The notes below the pieces were generated by a model. The model was not told the origin of the DNA and made no database searches. It saw only the letters and a list, made by a program, of their open reading frames with translations. Both the position numbers and the translations under genes were made by a program. From NCBI GenBank assembly GCA_905214105.1, contig CAJMKK010000002.1, positions 124,001 through 188,000 on the forward strand: a DNA stretch of 64,000 nucleotides. Direction: 5' to 3'. Shown here piece after piece: positions 2,398-30,901 of this stretch. The stretch's first letter is position 1; every line of letters begins with the position of its first letter. This DNA comes from an uncultured bacterium. GTDB lineage: Bacteria; Actinomycetota; Coriobacteriia; Coriobacteriales; Coriobacteriaceae.

Positions 2398-5300
2398 ATG
2401 AGAACGGCAAAGCGCATACTCGCAGAGTTCATGACGGTGGTCATGGTGCTCCAAGCATGCTCGCCCACGGTGGTTGCTGTGGCGGCAGGCTGGCAGAACA
2501 TCTCGAACGAGATTGCTGCCGCATCTGCGAAGGCGTTGGATACTGCCGAGGGCGGCGAGACCAACGGCGATGTCACGATCGGGTCTGGGTCGAGTGATAC
2601 CGGCGCCGACAGCGACAGTGCTGGGGATGACGCGGCGAAGGATGACGCTGCAGCAGGCGATACCACCGATAGCGCTACGGGTTCCGATTCCACGGGCGAC
2701 CAGACGGAAGACGACGATGCCGCTGACGATGCCGCCACTGACGACGCCGAGCAAGATGCCGATGATGCGACTTCGGAGGACGCTGATGCCCAGGCGGGTG
2801 CGACGATCACGGATTTGAATAAGCTCGTCGAGCTGCTCGAGAAGAACGGCGCGGAAAGCATCGTGCGCAAAGACGACGAGAGCGGAATCCGAAGCCTCGA
2901 TGTCAAGTCGTCGGAGGCGTTCGCCGTCCTGTCTAACGCCGACGCTTCGCTTTACTATGATGCGCAGATCAAGGTTATCATCACGGGCGATGCGAAGCTC
3001 ACCGAGTCGGCTAATAACGGCATGTCTTTCCAGGGTCTTGGCAGTGATGAATGTCCGTTTGAAGGCAGGATCTATAGGGACGTTGATAGTCCCGTCGAGC
3101 TTACGACTGATCGGACGGTTTTTAATAACCTCAAGCTGTCTGACCAAAACAAAACGGTCAGGATAAAGTGGGTAGGCGCGACTAGCTATAGCGCACCGAT
3201 GGTCGCTTCGAAGGTCAGCGGTGCGGAAAACGGCGAAGAGAGCAAGACACTCATCGCGTCGGTTGACATCGTGGAACCCGTGAACGTTGATGTGAAGGAT
3301 GCGACTTCCGCCTTGACGGCACCCCTCCTGGGTGCGACGACGGGCGACCTTGCTGCGAACGTTACCTATAGCCTCGCCGATTCTCGAAAGAATCTCAACG
3401 CGAATGCGACGGGCAACATTGGCTTGATTGCCAACACGGTCGAGAGCGGGAGCTTGACGGTTGAGTCCGTCACGTTCCCCAACGATCTGACCTCAGGCGG
3501 AGCCGTCAAAACGAGCTCTGGCAACGCTGGCCTGCTCGTAGGCGAAGTCAAGGACGGTGCGACCCTGAGCATTGGCACTCTGGCAAACGTTCCCACCGCC
3601 ACCGTCCAGTCTACGAACGGCTCCGCCGGTGGCGTTGTAGGACTCGTTGGCTCGAGCACGGGTGCCATGGTCAACGTCGCGAAAGCTCTCGACCTACACG
3701 CGCTCACCGTCAAGGGCACAACTGCCAGCGGCGGTTTTATTGGTAAAGCGACCGTGCTCACACTGGGCGCGGATAATAAGCAGATTGGGTGTCCTCTAAA
3801 TATTGGCGACGAGAACAGCGCTTGCTCTGGTGGCGTTATCGGCGACGTGAGCTTTGCGCAAGGATTTGCCGTTACGTCCAATATGTTCGACCTGGGCGAC
3901 CTTGTGACTCTTGGTGCGTCGCAGCGCGCCGGCGCTCTTTTTGGCATGGCCGATATCTCTAATGGAGACATCGTGGTGCAAGGCGGGACGTATAAGAGCA
4001 AACTCGCCTTACCAGAAGATGTTAGTGTCAACGGCAGCTACGGCGGCCTTGTCGGCAAGGTGTTCGCGACGAAAACGGACGACGACGGCGCTTTGCGCGC
4101 CTTTGTTGTTGAAAAGGATGCAGATAATAAGAATACGTGCTCAATTGAGTTTGACCTTGCGAGCAAGTTGTCCGACGCAGGCGGCGTTGTCGGCTATGTT
4201 GGCGATAGCGCAAATCCTAACTCGCAGCCCGTTGCCGTTGTCTTCAACGGCGTGACGGTTGCGTGCAAGGGAGATGCTTCGGCGCGAACGGGTACCGGAA
4301 AGTTCGGTGGCGCCGTGGGCGTTGTCGATACGCGCAATGTCCTTGACGTGCGAGATTTCAAACTTACAAGCGACAATCCTATCGGTAAGGCGCAAAGCAA
4401 CCGTGCCGCGGGAATTGCGGGATCCGCGTGGAATGCTGTAATCAAATTCAGCGGCATCACGGATCTGTCGGGCGCAAGTTTTGCCGAGAACGCCACGACG
4501 GGTCAGCTCGTATACGAGAACCACAACGCGCTGATCTTCGCTGCCGGCAATGGCTCTAATGGTGATCTGGGAGACAAGGGCGCTGCGGTCTGGACCTTCA
4601 AGCGTAGCAACTCAGCCTCAAAGACGGACGACATCGCGACCTACGGTGAAGTTGTTCGTCTGGGCGGCGACTTCATTAAGCTTGATGTGGACACTCATAA
4701 GTTGACCTTGCCGGATTCGCTGACGGCAGCTAACGGTGCCTACGCCCTAACCACAGCTGAGGATTTCGCCAAGCTTGCGATTACCTGGCAAACCAACGGC
4801 TACTACTCGATGGTTGACGGCGTTACCGAAAACAACCTTAACGGCTTGCAGTCCTCGACCATTACGGTGAACGGCACTATTGATCTCAAGGGCACGGGCC
4901 TGACGGGTTTCACGCAGGATCGTGCAGACGGCTCGCAAGTTTTCTCGGGAACGTTGAACGGTGGCGGCACAATCAATCTTGCCGTCGGCGAGGCGTACGG
5001 CAAGCGTGGTGAAGACGTGCTCGACGGCAATAACACGAGCAACGGCAACGGCAAAATCTACCGCCACGGCCGCTTGGGCTTGTTCGCGGCCGTCAACGGT
5101 GCAACCATCTCCAACGTCACAATCGCTGGCTCCATGAAGTTCGATAACGGTTCGGCTATCGATGCCGGGTCGCTTGCGTGTGCCATCGTCGGCAACCTGT
5201 CATTGTCTGGCGTAACGTGCAAAACGAATATCGCGTGCGATGATACGTTTGCCAATGACGTGAACATTGGCGGTATTGCGGGCAGCGTGCTGGCGGCTTC

Positions 5301-8300
5301 TACGGTTGCGTTTAAGGATAACAGCAAGGCTCAAGCGACCATCGCTGCAACTAAAACGCTTAACGGCAATAGTCGCATTGGCGGCGCCATTGGTTATGCG
5401 GGCGATTATGGCTCGTCATTCAATGTTGCGGGCCTCGAAGTCGCCGGATCAATCGAAACTGGCGATTGCGCCGGCGGCAAGATTGCCCAAGTCGGTGGTC
5501 TTATCGGCTGCATCGCACAGAGTACCTACAATGCAGGGACAATAGCCAACTCAGCTGATAAGTACGTGAACATTTCGGGCCTTTCGTTCAATTCATTCGA
5601 AATGAAAGTCGGCAGGAACGGCGATAAGCTCAATGGCACGGGTGGTTTCTTGGGTTATAGCTGGGGCAACGCGGTCGTAACTATCGGAGATGAGAGCATT
5701 AACAAGAATGAAAACTCTTATGCTCTGAAAACGACCAACGCTTCTATAACCGCGACTGCGGATGATTCCAAGGAACTCGGTGGTCTTGTATACGCCGCGA
5801 GCGGCCACTGGATTATCAACAACTATGCCATCGATCTCTCGGGCACAACCATTAATGCGGGCGCCGCTCAGACGCTCGGCGTTCTAGTTTGCCGCGGCTG
5901 CAAGGTGGATGATAAGACGACATATGGCGTCGAGAGCTACCTAGGCCTGTACTTGGAGGACAGGGCTTATTGGGATACCGCCTATAGGGTGCCCACCGGC
6001 GAGGGGGCCATCGTTGCGTCGGGCGTAACGTCCTTCGATGAATGGGTTGGCAGCGGTGTAAAACCAAACAACGGCAGCAAGCTCATGGACGCCGACTGGA
6101 ACACGGTCGTTTCGCTACACACACAGAAAAACAAGCTGGACATGGACGGCGATGCCACAAAAGACAACAGCTACCATAATCGCTCGTCTTTCGGTCGAAG
6201 CCAGAATACGAACGGCAATACCCGCTACTTCTACAACCTCGACATAGCCTCTAAGAATTGTGAAGGCGGCTTTAGTGGCAGTCAAATCGATACAGCGGAA
6301 AAGCTGCTCTTATGGTCTGCTTACCGTTATGCTCCCGAAGGTATTCGTTCGACAATCGTTCCCAATGGCACGACAGGGCTCGATGATTCCATAACCATAA
6401 CGGGTACAATCGATTTGGCCGGCTACAGCTATTATCCCACTCAGCCGAGCGGAGAGGTGACGGTTGAGAATGCGACCATTACCTTCTGTTACTCCAAGAT
6501 CAAGGCCGAGCAGAATGGCAACAAGCTAAATTCCGATGCTACCCAGCACGAGAACATGCACTGCGGTCTTTTTCGAACGGTGGCAAACGGCGATCTCACA
6601 GTAAAAAACGTCACTTTGCGTGGTACTGTTGGGCCCGTTATTAATGACGGAAAGAGCTCTGAAGACACTGATGGAGCAAGCGGAAGCTCTTCGGGCGCGC
6701 TCGTGTGCCGCTGCGTGTATGGGTCCAGCGACGGCAATGGCACCAAGATTAGAAAGATCTCAATTGATGGTCTTACGCTCAACAATCTGATTGTCGACGG
6801 CGCCAACAGCGCCACGGATGCTAACGCCTATATGCCTCTGCTCATCAACGAGATGCAGAAGTACGTGAGCCTGAACGCGAAGAATATCAAGACTACTGGG
6901 TACACGAGTGACACCAAGGCGGCTACGTCGCTGTTCGGAAAGCTTGGTGTAGGCAGTGAGGCCGATCAGGTGACGGCAAAGTTTGAGCAAATCAGCTTGC
7001 CCAGCCAAAAGAACAAAACGATCTTCACCCATGCGAGCCTGCTGGAGAGTTTTGGCTACGGAAGCACGAGCACGGGCTCTGCGGACTACACCTTTACTAA
7101 GGCCGATGCCGATGCCGATGCAGGCAAGGTGACATACGGATCTGAGATTGATGGGAGTACGGAGTACCCGGGCAAGCAGCTTTGGTATTACGACGAAGCG
7201 ACGTATGGTGCCGTGAGCGGCTATGTGACGGTTGATGGTAAGAAGGACGGTGACGTCAGGCCTTGGTTTGGTGGCTATCTTCCTTATGTTTATAAGGGAA
7301 AGGCCACCGAGAGCGGCGTCCAATATCATGAAATTAAAGTCAACCAGCGCATTCCAAAGCTGGTAGAGGGATGCGGCACATATGGCGATCCGTATGCCGT
7401 TAAGGACGCGACTGAGATGAACGCCATCGCCAACTACATCAACAACCAAACTGCGCTCGACGGTTGGGAGGTCACCATTGCCGTCAACCAGAGTACGCTC
7501 TGTACTCGCCGCAGCGACAATAAAACCGACAATGAGGTTACGTACGTCTATAAGCAGGCGAAAGACACTGGGAAGAAGTGGGAAAAGAAGACCGGCGACA
7601 CCACTGATCCTTCGGCCACACTTTCCGACGAGATGATGCACCGCTATATCCAAAGCGCGTACTACAGTATTGAACCTACCGGGGGTAATACGATCACCCT
7701 TGACGGCGCATCGTTTGGCGGTTTTGGCAACAAAGCCAACCCGTTCCGTGGCGTCATCGTTGGCAACCCTAAAGGTGATAAAAAGGCAACCATCAAGATA
7801 GAGAATAACGAGGGTTCGCTTCGCGGCCTTATTCCCTATAGTTACGGCAGCGTGGTGCGCGATCTGAATATTCGCTATGTGAACGCGTCGGCGACTATTA
7901 CTTATTCTGCCAAGGATGCCGACGGTGTTCCGACGTCGTTCTTCGGTGGCGTTATCGGCTGCATCCTTGGCGGCGATAACATTATCGACGGTGTGGCCGT
8001 GAATGGGACAACGCCCGATAACTCCACAACCGGCTTTACGGTTGCTGGTGGCGGAACTAAGCCACATCTTGTTCCCATCGGCGGTTACGTTGGTGCCATT
8101 GCGGGCGGCGGTGTGATCTTCCGCAATATGTCAGGGACGTCTTGGCGCGCTGGAACCAGCGACAAGTCTCAGGGTCTTGGAACGGGCAACTTCCGGCAGT
8201 ACGACAATCCCTACGTTGGTCGTGTGATTGATGGCTATGCCTTTAGCGAGGGCTGCAAAGTCGAAAACGGTAACGCTAACTACAAGATCAACGAGCTCAC

Positions 8301-11300
8301 AAACAAGGGAGCTGCCTGCGTCACTACCACGGGCACCGACAACAAGTATATCGGCACTGATGCCGAGGCACCCGTGACCACGGTGGAAAACGCCCAGGGC
8401 CTTTTGGTGCTCTCGGCCATCATTAGCTCGGGTGCGGGTGCTGGAGCGGCACATACTGACTACGCTAATTATGGCGTGTTCCGCGGCTCCAAGGCGTACT
8501 GGGGCAGCGATAAGCAGGACCCGGCGATAAACGGCTACCTGTTTGGCAACAAGGAATATGGTAAGGTGCGAAATGCCAGCTACGACTGCGTGGGCAAGCC
8601 TGCGAGCGCTTCCGGCGATTTCGAAACCGCCAAAAACGATGACCAGAAGGCCCCGGGCAAACAGGGGTGGCACGGCCCGCTCAACCATGATGACGATGTA
8701 AATTCGCCCTACCTGGTGGCGTCCTACGCTGCCGACTACCAAACGGGCTACGTGTGCGCGTCGAAATCGATCGGCATGAGCCTGGAGTTCAAGGAAAATG
8801 CCACCTATGATATGACTGGCTACGGCACGGGATACGTGGGTCTCAGCGGCCGTTACTATTCCAATGCTTGCAGCTCGAACGAGGCGTCCACCGATCGCGA
8901 CCGCATCACGCCGCACGTGGCAACGATCGACGGCAACGGGGCCACCATCACGGTGGGCACCAAAGATGCCACTTACGGCGTCGTCGAATATGCCGATGAC
9001 GACTATAAGGTCTCGGGCGTGGGCGGCCTATTCAGCACCGTGATGTTCACCTCAACCAATGTGGGGCAGAGCGTCACCGCGAATGACGGCGCTCAGGTCA
9101 AAGACCTCACCTTTAGTAACTGCAACGTATCGCTCACGTACAAAGACGCCAACGGTAGCATTGCCTCGGGACCGGCATCGAACGACCTCATCGGCACCGG
9201 CCTTTTGGCGGGCGCAACGGCCAACTACGACGGCAACACGCGTGGCGTCTACCGCAACGTACAGATGAAGAACTGCACCGTGTTGGGCGCAAAGAGCGTA
9301 GGAGGGCTTCTTGGCAGCTCGGGCCGTACCAGCCGAAGGACGGATAACGACGTGACCTATATGGTCAATTTCGGCTCCGGCACGCAGGCGCCCGCGAATC
9401 TCTGTGACTGCTCATACACTGGCCTTAGCGTCACGGGCGAGAAGTACGTTGGCGGCTATGTGGGTGCGATCGCCTCGCCGTGCGGCGTGTGGACAACCGC
9501 GGCCACAGGGGTATACGAGAAGACTATTGGCAAAAACTCGACCATAACCGCCACGGGTACAACACCCTACGTGGGCGGCGTGTTCGGTTATACCTCCAGT
9601 AACGTATCGGTGAACACCAAAATTGGCATCACGGAAGCCGTCGCATCGAGCACGGCAGTCATCTCTGGGGTAAATGTACTCGCCACCGGGTCGAACACCG
9701 ATAAGTACATGGGCGCCGGCGGTGTGGTCGGAAGCGCCTATAGAGGCGTTATTTCTATAAGCAACGTGCGCATTGATGCCGGAGGCGATGCCAAGAGCGC
9801 CATCATCGGCGATGCCACCGGAACGAACAATAGCATCCGTAATGCGGGCGGCTTGATTGGCGAGGTCACGAGCAGTGGCAGCCCCAACACGTACTGGTTT
9901 GAGGACTGTAGCGTCGAGAATATCAACATTGCCGGCACCGACCAATGCTCGGGCGGACTTATCGGCTACTACTTCAGCAATGTGAACATAGCCTGCAACA
10001 ATATCGCGATTGAGAGCGCCACGATCAAGGGCAGGTGGAGCGGCGGTCTACTTGGCGCGATTAACAGCGGTGCCGACGTCATCAACGTCACCAACACAAA
10101 GGTATCTAACACAACGTTTGGCGGAACCTCCAACGGCGGCATTGCGGGCGACGGACGCGGCCAGTTCCATCTGGTAAACGTGCTCATGGACAGCAATACC
10201 TACAAATTGGGCTCTAAGCAGGGCGTGCTCTTAGGCGAGGTTGACACAAACGGCTATAGCCTCTCCGCAGCGGGCGTGAACGTAAAGCTCGGCAACGGCA
10301 AGACCACGCGTGATCTGCCGCCGATGGTTTACACGACCAATGCGGCCGCCGTAAACATGAAGTCGTATATCGCGTTTGGTGACTATAACGACACACTGGA
10401 AGCACCTGACAAGGGGATCACGCTCTACGGCGCGGACAATACCGCCACCACGGCAGCGAGCCCGTATGTGACCACGAGCCCCGTAAGCACGCTGGCGGCG
10501 CGTGCCTCCGACAACGACACCACCGATCGCTACCTGTTTGGCGACGGCGCCACCATCGACACCGCGGCGACCGTCCAGAGCGAGGCAGGCACCGGTGTTG
10601 CCGATCGCTACACCTACACGAATATCGGCGGCATTAATGACAACGGCGCCTATCAAAATAAGTCGAGCTACGATGCCTCATCCGTGGCCAGTAAGTTCAA
10701 TTCGAATAATGATACAAGCAGCAACCAAGCCACAGCGGATTTCCCCGTTTTGGTGATCTCTGGCAACGACAACACGACGGTCAAGAGCTATCTAAACATC
10801 GTCACGAACGGCGGCTTCTCCGATGCCTGCAGATTGAATAACGAGAATGGCACCAATCCGCACGTGACGGCCAAAGCAGAGGTTTTCCAACTCAAGGACG
10901 GTGTGTTCGTTAAAGACGGTGACGCGTCGAACAATCCCACGCTTCGCGTAGTGAACAATGGCAAGAACAATATGTCGTTTAGCCCAAGCTCCGATTGGGA
11001 CAACGGCAAAGGTCGCTTTACGCTCCTGACCGTTACCTTTACCGAGGCGGGTCAGAGCTACAACGTTCAGGTGCCGATCATCGTTAAGCGCAAGCTCGAG
11101 ATCGATTTCACTGCAACGTATGATTACGGCACTCAATTTAAAGAAAAAGACTACGCTAACCTTGGAAAAGATGCACACGTGCTTACGAGCTTTGGCGAGC
11201 CGATGACGGGTCTGCTTACCTGGACATACAATTCTGCCAATGGGAAGGAAGTCGACTTTGGCTGGGACAGCTATATGGCTGCTGGCGGCTCGATGAAGGG

Positions 11301-13068
11301 GCTCGGCAAGAGTATCCTCTTCAATGGTGCCGACGGAAGGTTGCCCCAGGGCACCCAGCTTACGCTCATCGATGCGAACGTTGATGGCAAGGCCGGTGGC
11401 AGAGAGTATCACTATACGGTGGGCGAAGGCGGAGCAACGAGCGTTTCCCTGAGCGGAAACGACGGCTTTAAGGATTCTGCGGGCAATCCATATCAGGAGC
11501 GATGGCTGAGCGAGATCTTGGGTGTGTCGGCCACGCAGGATGGCGCCGGCACATGGACCGTGTGTGATAACGAGGCAGAGGCGACCGCTAAAGCGAAACT
11601 CGATGGCAAGTGGACGCTGTTTAAGGTTGCGGGTGCTGACGTTCCCAGCAACAGTCGCTATACGCTAAAGGTACCCAAGGAGAAGGATACCGGCAGAGAG
11701 AAGCGTGCATCGGAGAGCGTCTACCTAGTTGTCAACGTGCCCAAGTCGGGCGACGGCGTGACGCAAGCTAGTATCAACGGTTTTACGGCTTCGTCTATTG
11801 ACTCGAATTCTTCGGGTGGCCGCATATCTTGGAATCTGCATCATGTTTTACGCACCGATGGCAGCGACGATATTCAAAACAGTACGGCATCGACATACAG
11901 CATCTTGTCCAATTATGAGCAGAATGTAGTCGACAAAAAAGATGGGGCGTGCATTCCGGTTTCGAAGTCGGAGGACGGTGCCGCCTACGTTCTTTCTCTC
12001 GATGTCATGGATACGGTTACGTTTAGCCCGAGCCAATACTATACAGAGAGCGACCATCTGTTCTATCAGCTCGATACATCGCTGTGTCGCTATGGCGCCA
12101 ACAACAACCTAATGGGAGTAAGCAGTTTCCCGAGCGGAACTTCGGCAATTGCGAAGTTCTATGTTGCCATCGGCAATCAGAACTACAGGTGGAGTGGCAG
12201 CGATTGGGAGCCGTATGACGCTTCGACGCCTGCGTTTACACAGATTGTGACGGATACGGGTGATGACTCACTGAGGCTCACGCTCGACCATGACCTTGCC
12301 GGAATCCGCAAGCGTGCAGCGGGCGGATCCTTTACCGTGCGTACGGTAGTGGAAGAGATTCGCCTTACGCCGGACGGCTGCAACAAGGTTATCTCCCTGT
12401 CCAAGCAGTCTGGCGAGGACGCCTGTACCAAGATGTCCTATACCGCCAAGCTTTCGACGCGTAAGGAAGGCCTTAATACCTCGAGCCTGACGCAGACGAA
12501 GCGCGGTAACGTCGGATACTATCGCATGGACACGGGTGATACGACCATTACGCTTTCTGCGCCAGATAAGTCGCAGCTTGGCATTAACGTGGACGACCTG
12601 CGTCCGATCGCGAATGGCACGATTGGTCTGGGTGCCACGTATGAACTGGGTGGACTCAGCAACGCCGCCGAGGCAATTGCGAACGCAGACTCTGTTGTGT
12701 ACACGCTCTCGCTTCAGCGCCGCGGAACCGACGGCACGTATGAGAGCGTAACGGATGATATCTCAAACTACGTAACAGTGACGGAGAGTAAGCTTGCCGC
12801 GGTCGCTCCCTCCGGTAGCACGATCACCTTCACTGACTCGAAGGAGAACGGCAAGTTCAAAACGAAGAACGGTAATACGACGTTTAGCCTGCCCTTTACC
12901 GTTAAGGTCAACACGCAGGTTGAACAGCGTGAGCAGTTCTACGCGAACTATCGCTTGGTGATGACAGCGAGCCTGGTTAAGGGTGACGTGGCGAGCGCAA
13001 CGCCTCAATCGCCCGACTATGTGACCTATACGCTCACGAGGGTGAACCTCAACGGCATCGACCACTAG
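2398..13068 (+). CDS. Giant exported GLUG-repeat surface protein (3556 residues)
   Basis: The protein starts with a signal-peptide-like segment (residues 1-30, ending VVAVAAG), then an Asp/Ala/Thr-rich low-complexity linker (about 55-135). Most of the remaining length carries recurring Gly-Gly-x-x-Gly phrases followed by hydrophobic residues, for example GGLVGKV near 548, GGVVGYVGD near 595, GGLIGCIA near 1035, GGVIGCILGG near 1850, GGLLGSS near 2302 and GGLIGYY near 2520. These match the GLUG motif of bacterial adhesins and suggest a long beta-helix. The last 650 residues lack these repeats and may form Ig-like or beta-sandwich domains. It ends LTRVNLNGIDH with no LPxTG motif, hydrophobic tail or cell-wall-binding repeat, so attachment is unexplained. 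A role in adhesion or biofilm is inferred. Confidence 0.85.
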   Translation: MRTAKRILAEFMTVVMVLQACSPTVVAVAAGWQNISNEIAAASAKALDTAEGGETNGDVTIGSGSSDTGADSDSAGDDAAKDDAAAGDTTDSATGSDSTGDQTEDDDAADDAATDDAEQDADDATSEDADAQAGATITDLNKLVELLEKNGAESIVRKDDESGIRSLDVKSSEAFAVLSNADASLYYDAQIKVIITGDAKLTESANNGMSFQGLGSDECPFEGRIYRDVDSPVELTTDRTVFNNLKLSDQNKTVRIKWVGATSYSAPMVASKVSGAENGEESKTLIASVDIVEPVNVDVKDATSALTAPLLGATTGDLAANVTYSLADSRKNLNANATGNIGLIANTVESGSLTVESVTFPNDLTSGGAVKTSSGNAGLLVGEVKDGATLSIGTLANVPTATVQSTNGSAGGVVGLVGSSTGAMVNVAKALDLHALTVKGTTASGGFIGKATVLTLGADNKQIGCPLNIGDENSACSGGVIGDVSFAQGFAVTSNMFDLGDLVTLGASQRAGALFGMADISNGDIVVQGGTYKSKLALPEDVSVNGSYGGLVGKVFATKTDDDGALRAFVVEKDADNKNTCSIEFDLASKLSDAGGVVGYVGDSANPNSQPVAVVFNGVTVACKGDASARTGTGKFGGAVGVVDTRNVLDVRDFKLTSDNPIGKAQSNRAAGIAGSAWNAVIKFSGITDLSGASFAENATTGQLVYENHNALIFAAGNGSNGDLGDKGAAVWTFKRSNSASKTDDIATYGEVVRLGGDFIKLDVDTHKLTLPDSLTAANGAYALTTAEDFAKLAITWQTNGYYSMVDGVTENNLNGLQSSTITVNGTIDLKGTGLTGFTQDRADGSQVFSGTLNGGGTINLAVGEAYGKRGEDVLDGNNTSNGNGKIYRHGRLGLFAAVNGATISNVTIAGSMKFDNGSAIDAGSLACAIVGNLSLSGVTCKTNIACDDTFANDVNIGGIAGSVLAASTVAFKDNSKAQATIAATKTLNGNSRIGGAIGYAGDYGSSFNVAGLEVAGSIETGDCAGGKIAQVGGLIGCIAQSTYNAGTIANSADKYVNISGLSFNSFEMKVGRNGDKLNGTGGFLGYSWGNAVVTIGDESINKNENSYALKTTNASITATADDSKELGGLVYAASGHWIINNYAIDLSGTTINAGAAQTLGVLVCRGCKVDDKTTYGVESYLGLYLEDRAYWDTAYRVPTGEGAIVASGVTSFDEWVGSGVKPNNGSKLMDADWNTVVSLHTQKNKLDMDGDATKDNSYHNRSSFGRSQNTNGNTRYFYNLDIASKNCEGGFSGSQIDTAEKLLLWSAYRYAPEGIRSTIVPNGTTGLDDSITITGTIDLAGYSYYPTQPSGEVTVENATITFCYSKIKAEQNGNKLNSDATQHENMHCGLFRTVANGDLTVKNVTLRGTVGPVINDGKSSEDTDGASGSSSGALVCRCVYGSSDGNGTKIRKISIDGLTLNNLIVDGANSATDANAYMPLLINEMQKYVSLNAKNIKTTGYTSDTKAATSLFGKLGVGSEADQVTAKFEQISLPSQKNKTIFTHASLLESFGYGSTSTGSADYTFTKADADADAGKVTYGSEIDGSTEYPGKQLWYYDEATYGAVSGYVTVDGKKDGDVRPWFGGYLPYVYKGKATESGVQYHEIKVNQRIPKLVEGCGTYGDPYAVKDATEMNAIANYINNQTALDGWEVTIAVNQSTLCTRRSDNKTDNEVTYVYKQAKDTGKKWEKKTGDTTDPSATLSDEMMHRYIQSAYYSIEPTGGNTITLDGASFGGFGNKANPFRGVIVGNPKGDKKATIKIENNEGSLRGLIPYSYGSVVRDLNIRYVNASATITYSAKDADGVPTSFFGGVIGCILGGDNIIDGVAVNGTTPDNSTTGFTVAGGGTKPHLVPIGGYVGAIAGGGVIFRNMSGTSWRAGTSDKSQGLGTGNFRQYDNPYVGRVIDGYAFSEGCKVENGNANYKINELTNKGAACVTTTGTDNKYIGTDAEAPVTTVENAQGLLVLSAIISSGAGAGAAHTDYANYGVFRGSKAYWGSDKQDPAINGYLFGNKEYGKVRNASYDCVGKPASASGDFETAKNDDQKAPGKQGWHGPLNHDDDVNSPYLVASYAADYQTGYVCASKSIGMSLEFKENATYDMTGYGTGYVGLSGRYYSNACSSNEASTDRDRITPHVATIDGNGATITVGTKDATYGVVEYADDDYKVSGVGGLFSTVMFTSTNVGQSVTANDGAQVKDLTFSNCNVSLTYKDANGSIASGPASNDLIGTGLLAGATANYDGNTRGVYRNVQMKNCTVLGAKSVGGLLGSSGRTSRRTDNDVTYMVNFGSGTQAPANLCDCSYTGLSVTGEKYVGGYVGAIASPCGVWTTAATGVYEKTIGKNSTITATGTTPYVGGVFGYTSSNVSVNTKIGITEAVASSTAVISGVNVLATGSNTDKYMGAGGVVGSAYRGVISISNVRIDAGGDAKSAIIGDATGTNNSIRNAGGLIGEVTSSGSPNTYWFEDCSVENINIAGTDQCSGGLIGYYFSNVNIACNNIAIESATIKGRWSGGLLGAINSGADVINVTNTKVSNTTFGGTSNGGIAGDGRGQFHLVNVLMDSNTYKLGSKQGVLLGEVDTNGYSLSAAGVNVKLGNGKTTRDLPPMVYTTNAAAVNMKSYIAFGDYNDTLEAPDKGITLYGADNTATTAASPYVTTSPVSTLAARASDNDTTDRYLFGDGATIDTAATVQSEAGTGVADRYTYTNIGGINDNGAYQNKSSYDASSVASKFNSNNDTSSNQATADFPVLVISGNDNTTVKSYLNIVTNGGFSDACRLNNENGTNPHVTAKAEVFQLKDGVFVKDGDASNNPTLRVVNNGKNNMSFSPSSDWDNGKGRFTLLTVTFTEAGQSYNVQVPIIVKRKLEIDFTATYDYGTQFKEKDYANLGKDAHVLTSFGEPMTGLLTWTYNSANGKEVDFGWDSYMAAGGSMKGLGKSILFNGADGRLPQGTQLTLIDANVDGKAGGREYHYTVGEGGATSVSLSGNDGFKDSAGNPYQERWLSEILGVSATQDGAGTWTVCDNEAEATAKAKLDGKWTLFKVAGADVPSNSRYTLKVPKEKDTGREKRASESVYLVVNVPKSGDGVTQASINGFTASSIDSNSSGGRISWNLHHVLRTDGSDDIQNSTASTYSILSNYEQNVVDKKDGACIPVSKSEDGAAYVLSLDVMDTVTFSPSQYYTESDHLFYQLDTSLCRYGANNNLMGVSSFPSGTSAIAKFYVAIGNQNYRWSGSDWEPYDASTPAFTQIVTDTGDDSLRLTLDHDLAGIRKRAAGGSFTVRTVVEEIRLTPDGCNKVISLSKQSGEDACTKMSYTAKLSTRKEGLNTSSLTQTKRGNVGYYRMDTGDTTITLSAPDKSQLGINVDDLRPIANGTIGLGATYELGGLSNAAEAIANADSVVYTLSLQRRGTDGTYESVTDDISNYVTVTESKLAAVAPSGSTITFTDSKENGKFKTKNGNTTFSLPFTVKVNTQVEQREQFYANYRLVMTASLVKGDVASATPQSPDYVTYTLTRVNLNGIDH

Positions 13069-19377: not shown

Positions 19378-19719
19378 ATGAGTTTGCTGACATTTGCCAA
19401 GACGGCCTTGGGTTCTATGGTCAAGCAGCCGGTCACGGTGTGCTATCCGCAGGAGAAACTGACGGCGCCCGAGCGCCTGCGCGGGCATATTGTCAATGAC
19501 ATGGACGTGTGCATCTGCTGCGGCATGTGCGCTCGGCGTTGTCCGGCGGGCGCACTCGCGGTCGATCGCAAAGGCGGCACCTGGTCGATTGACCCGTACG
19601 CCTGCGTGGTGTGCGGCGAGTGCATCGAAAGCTGCCCCAAACACTGCCTGACTATGGATACCGCCCGTACCCCAGTCGCAGCGGATAAGACTCCCACGGT
19701 AGAAACCAAGCCGGAATAG
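19378..19719 (+). CDS. echF: Ech hydrogenase ferredoxin-like subunit (NuoI-like)
   Basis: The 113-residue polyferredoxin subunit has two typical 4Fe-4S motifs, CICCGMCARRCP (about 43-54) and CVVCGECIESCP (about 75-86). It accepts electrons from soluble ferredoxin and passes them to the small-subunit cluster. The order membrane-C-D-E-F matches the ech operon, which couples ferredoxin oxidation and H2 formation to ion translocation. It lies 7 bases after echE and is the last gene of the operon, followed by a strong GC-rich hairpin. Confidence 0.92.
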   Translation: MSLLTFAKTALGSMVKQPVTVCYPQEKLTAPERLRGHIVNDMDVCICCGMCARRCPAGALAVDRKGGTWSIDPYACVVCGECIESCPKHCLTMDTARTPVAADKTPTVETKPE

Positions 19720-19728
19720 CGCGAAGAC

Positions 19729-19762
19729 GGGGCCGGTGGGGCATAAATGCCCCACCGGCCCC
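19729..19762 (+). terminator. Strong hairpin ending the ech operon
   Basis: A perfect 15-base stem (19729-19743 with 19748-19762, loop TAAA) lies 10 bases after echF. There is no clear T tract after it, so it may work as a transcript-end stabiliser as much as a terminator. Confidence 0.7.
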
Positions 19763-19794
19763 GAGCTTAAACGCGCGAGCGAGCCGCCGCGAAC

Positions 19795-19946
19795 AAAACT
19801 ATGCCGGATTACGGGGCTGGATGGCGAACCTCCGACCATATAGAAAATCGCAAAAACAAAACCGCAGGTAGATAGCCTGCCGTTTTTCAAAAAATGAAGG
19901 TATGGATGAGGGCCCCGACTTTAGCTCCGTAATCCGGCATAGTTTT
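19795..19946. repeat. Palindromic intergenic element, copy 1
   Basis: The terminal arms 19795-19818 and 19923-19946 (AAAACTATGCCGGATTACGG...) are complementary over 24 bases with one G-T pair. The 104-base interior holds a nested hairpin, CCGCAGGTAGA...CCTGCCG (19861-19883). The right flank (GAAATGGCAC) and left flank (GCCGCGAAC) recur beside copy 3. No coding frame fits the element. Confidence 0.85.
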
Positions 19947-19974
19947 GAAATGGCACCATATCCGTAACAGCTCT

Positions 19975-20268
19975 TGATCTCCCATGGACGGAGGAAAGCG
20001 GATCATTTTTGCCTTGCGAAGGCTGCTGCGTGATCCGGCCGCCACGAAATCGGCCCATTTACTACGTTTAGGCGGCAGCCCTCGACCACGGCAAGCAATG
20101 CGAAATGAAAACCGCAGGTAGAACGTCTGCGGTTTTTCATGAAACGCGGCTATGGTCAGGGGTATCGGGTCAAACGTAGTAGATGGGCCGATTTCGTGGT
20201 GGGCGCTGTCAGCCGATCTCCGTGGGCGGAAGAAAACGGATCATTTTGGTCTCGCGAGGTTTGCGGAG
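19975..20268. repeat. Palindromic intergenic element, copy 2, with flanking direct repeats
   Basis: Arms 20042-20070 and 20169-20198 (CCACGAAATCGGCCCATTTA... with its complement) match over about 27 of 29 bases. The centre again holds ACCGCAGGTAGAACGTCTGC. An imperfect direct repeat of about 52 bases, each copy containing CGGATCATTTT, brackets it (19975-20028 and 20213-20265). The arm sequence differs from copies 1 and 3, yet the two arms still match each other. Confidence 0.82.
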
Positions 20269-20293
20269 GCACTCGTGCAGGGCCGTCGCGAAT

Positions 20294-20445
20294 AAAACTA
20301 TGTCGGTTTACTACGATGAATTCGGCATTCCCGACCATGACTGCATTTTTCTAAATATTGCAAGCGTTCTACCTGCGGTTTTGGAAGCGCGCAATTTGCC
20401 GTGGTCGAAGGTGGTCGATTCATCGTAGTAAACCGGCATAGTTTT
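20294..20445. repeat. Palindromic intergenic element, copy 3
   Basis: Arms 20294-20321 and 20418-20445 (AAAACTATGTCGGTTTACTA...) are complementary over 28 bases with one G-T pair. The interior has CGACCATG / CGTGGTCG subterminal pairing and the inverted module TTCTACCTGCGGTTTT. Total length and architecture equal copy 1 (152 bases), but the inner half of the arms is different. Confidence 0.85.
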
Positions 20446-20506
20446 GAAATGGCATTAAATCGGTAGCAGCCATTTTGCTATGCCGGGGCGATCGGTCTTC
20501 GGGTAA

Positions 20507-21136
20507 TTACCCTCGCAGGTAGGCGATGGCGATCTGCGTGCGGTTGCGTAGGCCCATTTTGGCTAGGATTGAGCTGATGTGGTTGCGTACGGTGCCTTCG
20601 CCCATATAAGCTGTGGCGGCAATCTCCTTGTTGTCGAGACCGCGGGCGATGAGCTCGGCGACTTCGAATTCGCGGTCGGTCAGGCCGGCAAAGGCCGCGG
20701 GCCGGCGGAGCGTGCCCGACTCGACGCCCGTTCCGTCAAAATCGATGTCCTCGATTGCCTTGCCCTCGAGTACGCGCTTACCGTCCATAACCTGCGCCAA
20801 CGCCGGTGGAATGGCGGCGACATCGGTTTTAATCAGGTAGCCGCGGGCGCCCAGCTTGAGCGCCGACACAATGTACTCGTCATCCGAGAACGTCGTCAGA
20901 AATACCACGCGCGCCGCAGGGTCGCGCTCAAGGATCTCGCGCGCGGCCGAAAGGCCATCGCGTCCCGGCATCTGGATGTCGAGCAGCGCGATGTCGGGCG
21001 AGTGCTCGGCGTAGAGCGCGACCGCGTCGTCGCCGTTGGCGCCGGTGCCCACTACCTCGATCTGCGTCTGGGCGCCCAGGATAATCTTGAGCGAATCGAC
21101 CACCAAACGGTCGTCGTCGACAACAATGAGCCTCAT
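20507..21136 (-). CDS. NarL/LuxR-family response regulator
   Basis: The 209-residue regulator has a receiver domain (1 to about 120) with the acidic pocket DDD at 7-9, phosphorylation site D53 (LLDIQMPG) and K103 (YLIKTD). A LuxR-type helix-turn-helix follows (about 145-205; LTDREFEVAELIARGLDNKE ... VRNHISSILAKMG). Its start overlaps the stop of the upstream histidine kinase by 4 bases, so the two form one minus-strand unit. They lie divergently from an ABC-2 exporter operon, the usual target of such pairs; control of that operon is an inference from position. Confidence 0.92.
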   Translation of the reverse strand: MRLIVVDDDRLVVDSLKIILGAQTQIEVVGTGANGDDAVALYAEHSPDIALLDIQMPGRDGLSAAREILERDPAARVVFLTTFSDDEYIVSALKLGARGYLIKTDVAAIPPALAQVMDGKRVLEGKAIEDIDFDGTGVESGTLRRPAAFAGLTDREFEVAELIARGLDNKEIAATAYMGEGTVRNHISSILAKMGLRNRTQIAIAYLRG

Positions 21137-30777: not shown

Positions 30778-30901
30778 CGGAAGTATGCGGCAAATTTCGA
30801 GACCGCCGAGCACACGACATTTTTTGGCAACAAAACCCCTGATAAATTGTTGGTAAAACTGCGGTCTGGTCGGCAGTTCCAGATTTTGCCGCATACTTCC
30901 G
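30778..30901. repeat. Palindromic intergenic element with 17-bp arms
   Basis: Arms 30778-30794 and 30885-30901 (CGGAAGTATGCGGCAAA and its complement) match perfectly. A second inner pairing AGACCGC / GCGGTCT (30800-30806 and 30861-30867) gives a long hairpin of 124 bases, similar in plan to the elements near 20000. Confidence 0.8.

Follow-up and report, generated by a model that had tools for sequence, protein, structure and literature searches.

Dispersed intergenic palindromes with a conserved centre and exchangeable arms in Coriobacteriia

What kind of element keeps its two ends complementary while the sequence of those ends changes from copy to copy? The question is raised by a short gap in the window (the whole stretch of 64,000 nucleotides analysed here), where three adjacent palindromes lie between a ferredoxin-like gene and a convergent regulatory gene. 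The initial annotation of this DNA had read them as the product of selection for a folded RNA, or of palindrome-copying repair or mobility, rather than as a fixed protein site. The features concerned are the following.

19378..19719, plus strand: 4Fe-4S ferredoxin-like gene upstream of the array, following a hydrogenase/complex-I 49-kDa-like gene
19794..19947, plus strand: element 1, arm type C, outer half CAAAACTATGCCGG and inner half ATTACGGGGCT, core AAAACCGCAGGTAGA at 19858-19872
19976..20019, plus strand: inter-element repeat ..GGACGGAGGAAA.CGGATCATTTT.., copy 1, direct-repeat family D4
20044..20197, plus strand: element 2, arm type A ACGAAATCGGCCCATTTACTACGTTT, core at 20108-20122
20215..20257, plus strand: inter-element repeat, copy 2, direct-repeat family D4
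20293..20446, minus strand: element 3, arm type B CAAAACTATGCCGGTTTACTACGATGAAT, core at 20368-20382 on the minus strand
20507..21136, minus strand: LuxR-family response regulator gene, downstream and convergent
30778..30901, plus strand: element 4, diverged, arms CGGAAGTATGCGGCAAA / TTTGCCGCATACTTCCG, boxes CCGAGCA / TGGTCGG, degenerate core

Elements 1-3 are each 154 bases long and lie where the initial annotation had placed three palindromes with a shared core. As ungapped inverted repeats they score 22, 25 and 25, a level that none of 100 dinucleotide shuffles of 19720-20506 approaches (highest score 11), and the core AAAACCGCAGGTAGA, expected 0.08 times in the 64-kb window at two mismatches or fewer, is found there three times. 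The arms of element 1 (19794-19818/19923-19947, 25 nt) and of element 3 (20294-20321/20418-20445, 28 nt) are 96% complementary in both cases. Those of element 2, read from the sequence, fail to match at one of 27 positions; a longer pair, though a less perfect one, was also detected, and pairing runs about 3 bases past 20044-20197. Element 3 is inverted relative to elements 1 and 2. The arm differences first noticed in this array were confirmed. AAAACTATGYCGG forms the outer half-arm in both copy 1 and copy 3, whereas the inner half reads ATTACGGGGCT in the one and TTTACTACGATGAAT in the other, the partner arm being altered to match in each; copy 2 carries the different arms of type A. Direct repeats between copies (families D1-D4), found within and outside the elements, are equally real and support past mobility or duplication; the inter-element repeat motif also adjoins elements in the arrays of relatives. 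Element 4, which represents a fifth arm type, was found with a covariance model (R1, described below; E 6.3e-12, E-values being rough after a short calibration) in the gap between two convergent ORFs, directly past a terminator-like hairpin. A perfect 17-bp GC-rich hairpin, probably a terminator, stands right behind the ferredoxin-like gene at 19728-19763.

The elements are not confined to this locus. Among 43 genomes of the genus, which we take to be Collinsella from named matches, 22 contain matches to element 2 at E<=1e-8, and the nearest relative (G001) contains 12. Iterative nhmmer searches yielded 265 non-overlapping hits in the fetched loci, some of which overlap one another; 193 distinct full-length copies were kept, 81 of them at less than 90% mutual identity. 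Arm type A reads ACGAAATsGGCCyATCTACTACGTTT with flanks GCC..GGC, type B reads CAAAACTATGCCGGTTTACTACGATGAAT, type C CAAAACTATGCCGGTTTACGGGGCT, and type D, which surfaces when searching by the core only, CTAAGTGAGTAGACTTTTTGG. Half-arms combine, as in one locus (L018) that joins a B outer half to an A inner half. Termini are mostly GCC/GGC (type A) or CAAAAC/GTTTTG (types B and C), and the inner inverted boxes are CCGAGTAG/CTACTCGG in many relatives and ACCAT/ATGGT in the window. Short (mostly about 91-183 bp across the family), non-coding and bounded by terminal inverted repeats, the elements resemble MITEs in these respects.

A covariance-model search across the class, as the initial annotation had proposed, was carried out with R1, built from 46 hand-chosen copies. 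It matched 73 of 296 genomes and 17 of 125 genera. Thirty R1-positive genomes were searched again with laxer filters, the top two giving 32 and 35 matches (a copy may count on both strands). From these genomes 86 loci were fetched, of which 78 contain the core (three mismatches or fewer) inside inverted arms of 10-47 nt, amounting to 85 distinct elements; the other 8 gave no core-plus-arms reading. The core is looser in these other genera, being exact in 11 of the 85 elements and carrying three mismatches, the limit of the search, in 13. By letter shuffles, foreign arms resemble one of the five local arm types in 4 of 84 cases at p<=0.01 and in 16 of 84 at p<=0.05. Judged by sequence likeness, most foreign arms thus show no clear resemblance to local types, yet some arm kinship exists, and two foreign loci (L320 and L399) carry the D-like CTAAGTGAG. 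Complementarity kept while arm sequence changes, as first described for the window, holds far beyond it, in other subfamilies and species. The exact box-plus-core pattern retrieved 9 stretches from named genomes: all 7 from Collinsella/Coriobacteriaceae have inverted arms (scores 11-31), whereas both from other taxa do not (6-7). Whole elements were found in no phage record and, among plasmids, in one 0.9-Mb C. aerofaciens replicon. The initial annotation had named two outcomes that would count against it. One was that there might be neither further copies nor compensatory changes, and both were found; the other was a REP/MITE family with a known transposase, and none matched. The literature searched (listings and excerpts) contains no description of conserved-core, variable-arm elements of Coriobacteriia, so that these dispersed intergenic palindromes with a conserved centre and exchangeable arms apparently form an unnamed family, as had been supposed.

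Spacing within the elements is nearly invariant. When eight genomes were searched by arm alone with length left free, which makes the data independent of the score and length selection applied to the orthologs below, type A gave 23 uninterrupted arm pairs (22 at a spacing of 120, one at 119) and types B and C gave 17 (13 at 134, three at 133, one at 135). In G249 and G068 all 12 pairs are at 109, and in G018 12 of 14 are at 122, with one at 121 and one at 123. Altogether 59 of 66 uninterrupted pairs lie at the mode of their family and 7 of 66 are off by one; 14 single matches remained unpaired (2, 4, 2 and 6, respectively). The distance from the palindrome centre to the start of the core is 11.0-12.0 bp in all 193 local copies. 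In the 84 elements of other species whose arms reach 15 nt or more, it falls into three classes without exception: 6.0-7.0 bp (59), 11.0-12.0 bp (10) and 21.0-21.5 bp (15). For the centre to shift by 5 or 15, the right arm must be displaced by about 10 or 30 bp, close to one and three turns of the helix. This helical-phase reading of the offset classes is suggestive only, and the classes may stem from few ancestral events. In G026, a repeated arm accounts for part of the extra length.

To what extent is this plan held in place after a copy has settled? Grouping 172 copies with 700-bp flanks gave 35 clusters when both flanks were used and 22 when either sufficed, and copies of the same type within a cluster were compared (443 pairs in 34 groups, leaving out pairs with zero or more than 22% element difference). 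Changes per site amount to 0.054 in the arms and 0.036 in the core, against 0.148 in the spacers and 0.146 in the flanks, and indels per site to 0.0023 in elements versus 0.0168 in flanks, about sevenfold fewer. Arms evolve more slowly than spacers in 32 of 34 groups and the core does so in 34 of 34, while 23 of 25 informative groups have fewer indels in their elements than in the flanks. The same picture had emerged before under a stricter length filter. Arms, core and length are thus constrained in place, somewhat less than these figures state because selecting copies by score (>=85) and length (>=140) under-counts decayed ones.

Such constraint could act on RNA or on DNA. On the first reading, the elements would be structured RNAs or 3'-end elements (bidirectional terminators, mRNA stabilisers or processing sites), convergent transcripts ending in their hairpins and selection keeping the pairing; we consider this unlikely. 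Hairpins predicted for 137-147-nt pieces of elements 1-3 are stable (z -2.4, -7.9, -6.4), and pairing is kept across subfamilies: in the 46 chosen copies, 95.3% of stem cells are paired and 216 two-sided changes are present, both values lying beyond 500 shuffles, with two-sided changes in 13 of 23 outer pairs. Two of five covariation measures fell within the shuffles (96/500 for pairs with a two-sided change, 265/500 for further pair types), as expected if few subfamily events underlie the two-sided changes. Placement also suits an RNA reading, convergent gaps being frequent and divergent ones rare. All 172 copies lie outside called genes, none overlapping one by more than 50 bp, according to gene calls from a crude codon-score script trained on nine ORFs of the window. 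Counted by cluster, with several clusters being parts of one locus, the gaps are convergent in 13, codirectional in 12, divergent in 1 and unresolved in 9. In some A copies, furthermore, the core is terminator-like (AAAACCGCAGG..CCTGCGGTTTT).

The mismatches inside the arms, on the other hand, speak mostly against RNA. A lean to G-U over A-C, as RNA would give, is seen in type A only (63 versus 28), the two other local subfamilies showing 17:17 and 6:4. The 85 other-species elements contain 34 G-U, 36 A-C and 56 other arm-internal mismatches (124 G-U versus 118 A-C when three extra positions per side are counted), and the inner helix of local orthologs shows 6 G-U versus 15 A-C. Between orthologs, 83 one-sided stem changes (38 G-U, 19 A-C, 26 other) stand against 2 two-sided compensated ones. 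Neither does any element match an Rfam family at gathering score, so the selection for a folded RNA put forward at first is not borne out. Arm sequence is itself conserved within subfamilies, indels are few although spacers evolve freely, and the partner of the core hairpin differs between types instead of being conserved, all of which count against an RNA.

Two-sided changes nevertheless accumulate with divergence, a point in favour of RNA. At a spacer divergence of 0.3-0.4, their share is 0.18 in orthologs and paralogs alike; at 0.1-0.3, it is 0.16 and 0.19 in paralogs versus 0.05 and 0.05 in orthologs, few of these being compensated pairs, and complementarity may be restored only at the birth of a copy. 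Judging by the build-up, pairing has been kept up over time, but no consistent RNA signature goes with it. Fixed spacing, few indels and G-U and A-C mismatches balanced in other species favour a DNA-level element, putatively bound by protein, over an RNA. The earlier contrast with a fixed protein site is weakened as well: arms and core conserved in sequence within a subfamily, together with near-invariant spacing, fit protein binding.

With moderate confidence, we therefore regard these non-coding intergenic elements of Coriobacteriia as double-stranded DNA sites whose arms and core are putatively bound by proteins at fixed spacing, and which spread in the past without autonomy. Each has AAAACCGCAGGTAGA as its asymmetric core, inverted boxes further out and, outermost, inverted arms whose sequence is particular to a subfamily or species; proteins would bind arms and core held at fixed spacing on the double helix. 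Past spread may have taken place as a non-autonomous unit bounded by inverted repeats, with a recombinase or transposase supplied in trans. Copies would then persist under constraint at intergenic sites, rarely between divergent genes, and could serve as substrates for recombination, for example in the gain or loss of an adhesin gene at the hydrogenase locus. While anatomy, dispersal, near-constant spacing, constraint at orthologous loci (subject to the sampling bias noted above) and the presence or absence of the adhesin gene between elements are observed directly, protein binding and the mode of spread are what we infer from them.

Presence and absence of the element can be followed at a tRNA-Sec-like locus. 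It is present in G001, G032, G004 and G027 and absent in G003, G009, G011, G022 and G025, where the gap was read across; G035 has a different palindrome there. By eye, no target-site duplication is visible at the one clean empty site compared, where about 55 bp besides the element also differ, so that insertion and deletion are not told apart at this locus. The idea that arms arise by fold-back duplication of the target was rejected, the empty sites carrying no arm sequence. At a second locus, three relatives have this other palindrome in place of the element. A second, shorter palindrome family (AGTTGCGGTGAAATA..../..CACCGCAACT; L243, L249, L273, L274, L276, L279) was encountered, in which the inner half-arm also changes along with its partner and which can fill the same gap as the element in other species.

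None of the elements was seen to include a transposase or recombinase, and the eight genomes searched by arm pattern gave no longer copy with the same arms that could be an autonomous form: next to the 66 element-spaced pairs and 14 unpaired arms, there were two pairs interrupted by insertion sequences. In these two, arms about 1.6 kb apart enclose an insertion sequence flanked by 8-base duplications (CATGTCGA in L229, TAGACGGC in L219), and the transposase encoded by the insertion in L229 is of Mutator type (PF00872). In L227, a truncated element lies next to a similar insertion end. Paired elements about 0.8-1.2 kb apart occur in L090, L104, L173, L175 and L176; L090 and L175 have what by eye are tRNA-like sequences between the two elements, and the two copies in L090 are nearly identical.

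The locus of the array itself differs in gene content between relatives. In 12 of 17 genomes read there, it holds a gene of 2077-2432 aa (one is cut at 2004 by the end of the sequence fetched) that is absent from the window and encodes a putative adhesin; the three checked for domains contain VWA and repeated FctA. Type A copies stand on both sides of this gene in G001, G002, G004 and G027 and only on the response-regulator side in G003, G005, G009 and G010, while G022 is without an element on the hydrogenase side; in G006, G011 and G012, that side lies outside or partly outside the sequence read, and G013 and G020 are unclassified. The array occurs without the adhesin gene in the window, G007, G008 and G035. 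In all four gene-less loci, the left flank of the lone A copy is like that of left copies (mean identity 0.84-0.89, against 0.48-0.49) and its right flank like that of right copies (0.79-0.85, against 0.58-0.62). In the window, this copy is element 2, which agrees in its outer flanks with the pair of A copies bordering the adhesin gene in relatives. Such hybrid flanks fit recombination between two copies or an ancestral gene-less site, gain and loss being indistinct, and ordinary homologous recombination suffices to produce them. Elsewhere in the window, a 3556-aa ORF with a signal-like start and no Pfam match occupies 2398-13068.

Part of the element also occurs in viruses. An exact scan found AAAACCGCAGGTARANNNCTTG in 20 viral contigs, against none for a reversed-pattern control. 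Most viral copies share CAAAACCGCAGGTARACGGCTTG, followed by variable sequence, and those examined have no palindromic arms; the box-plus-core pattern gave one hit in viral contigs, again without arms. At the viral loci examined (L409-L416, L459-L470), CAAAACCGCAGGTARACGGCTTG occurs as one strong copy per stretch, beside an integrase in some and beside lysis or structural genes in others. Matches to known RNA families in 13 contigs were restricted to one unrelated tRNA, a laxer look at one viral contig gave only matches far below gathering scores, and ARAGORN found no tRNA in 8 viral loci, and a known RNA family and a tRNA-derived core were rejected as readings of the motif.

A wider proposal, which we regard as doubtful, is that the elements are class-wide DNA assembly sites of Coriobacteriia, on which a nucleoprotein complex of fixed geometry would form around a core shared with phages and lineage-specific arms, the sites being kept at set places in the chromosome and offering a recombination or landing platform to phages, insertion sequences and adhesin cassettes. 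Narrower, and in our estimate less probable still, is the reading of the element as an attachment site of phages or integrative elements. Its centre AAAACCGCAGG-TAGAACG-TCTGCGGTTTT would then be a tyrosine-recombinase core site, whose 11-7-11 layout we presume to recognise here, and the arms would be accessory sites. The 20 contigs with the motif point this way, as does a phage-integrase gene with a Pfam match within about 560 bp of it in 6 of them (two integrase types; one has a relative in a Raoultibacter MAG). Among these 6, the match of L461 is below the Pfam cut-off, and in a seventh contig, L463, the neighbour is integrase-like by eye. Insertions, moreover, split elements inside the core in three genomes (G019, G012 and G005; L051, L208 and L045). 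G019 and G012 share the foreign end that adjoins the element inside the core (CAGT/GCAGG), and in G005 a different foreign sequence is joined to the other core half at nearly the same point. The gene start next to the split element in G019 (L051) is what we take to be IS110-like, and the insertions seen inside elements are IS-like. The core may thus serve for attachment, for protein binding or as a signal in a transcript.

Several observations weigh against an attachment site. The other 14 contigs have no confirmed integrase near the motif, among the neighbours examined in some of them and with several contigs being partial, and the copy in L410 lies inside an ORF. Among integrase loci related to that of L411, the core was found only in 3 of 10, all already known, and among those related to that of L412 only in L412's own of 2, which speaks against the viral core as a general attP. 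No phage-type half-site was present in 1.41 Mb of (redundant) fetched host loci, the viral copies are without arms, and both the IS110 name and the 11-7-11 layout are tentative assignments.

Least probable of all, and very unlikely in our view, is an ordinary neutral MITE- or REP-like repeat, with species-specific terminal inverted repeats amplified by transposases, complementarity upheld by arm-to-arm gene conversion and no host role: several copies per genome, arms shared by subfamilies within a genome, presence or absence between species and the existence of mobile repeats this small (such as the Correia element of about 155 bp with its 24-bp inverted repeats, as excerpted in PMC2229807) agree with it, but arms, core and length are constrained in place (with the sampling caveat above), the core is common across genera despite differing arms, and neither target-site duplications nor a TA end rule was seen.

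If the protein-bound DNA site is the right reading, many Coriobacteriia would carry undescribed, constrained non-coding DNA sites whose centre is also found in viral contigs. The family would then show, as an experiment of nature, how the ends of a palindrome can diverge in sequence and still match, offer a route to a new DNA-binding or recombining protein, and explain the presence or absence of a large adhesin gene in Collinsella.

Known families of dispersed palindromes resemble these elements in part. The Correia/NEMIS repeats of Neisseria (about 107 and 155 bp, 24-bp terminal inverted repeats, TA ends, target-site duplication) are likewise short, non-coding and dispersed, with inverted arms of about 25 bp and a size near 155 bp; they differ, in the account excerpted from PMC2229807, by their TA ends and duplications, neither of which was found here, where arms vary between subfamilies and the core is shared across genera. 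ERIC/IRU elements (7-bp terminal inverted repeats, TA termini, target-site duplication) are also dispersed palindromic repeats below 200 bp, and the same excerpt describes no common core with exchangeable arms for them (PMC2229807). The 5'-TA-3' termini characteristic of Correia/NEMIS, ERIC and RUP were not seen among the termini read. REP, BIME and REPIN sequences, which go with RAYT transposases, are extragenic palindromes reported as targets of insertion sequences (PMC1525189, in part), a likeness to the elements described here. According to the portions available of two sources, REPs measure 20-40 bp (PMC3733652) and usually exceed 100 copies (PMC2817692), whereas the present elements reach about 183 bp, with at most 35 matches per genome in 30 genomes, and are neither short hairpins nor high in copy. 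Palindromic candidate RNAs of human microbiomes are gut-bacterial palindromes from comparative genomics too, but the examples named in the excerpts of PMC8040213 are mostly from Bacteroidetes and include no Collinsella palindrome.

A conserved centre with swappable arms, which is what the assembly site would amount to if true, inverts the logic of the integron attC. Sites of attC type are variable yet stay palindromic and are recognised by a recombinase, a likeness to the present elements. In attC, it is the middle that varies, in sequence and length, whereas here the middle is conserved, the outside varies and the spacing is fixed within each subfamily.
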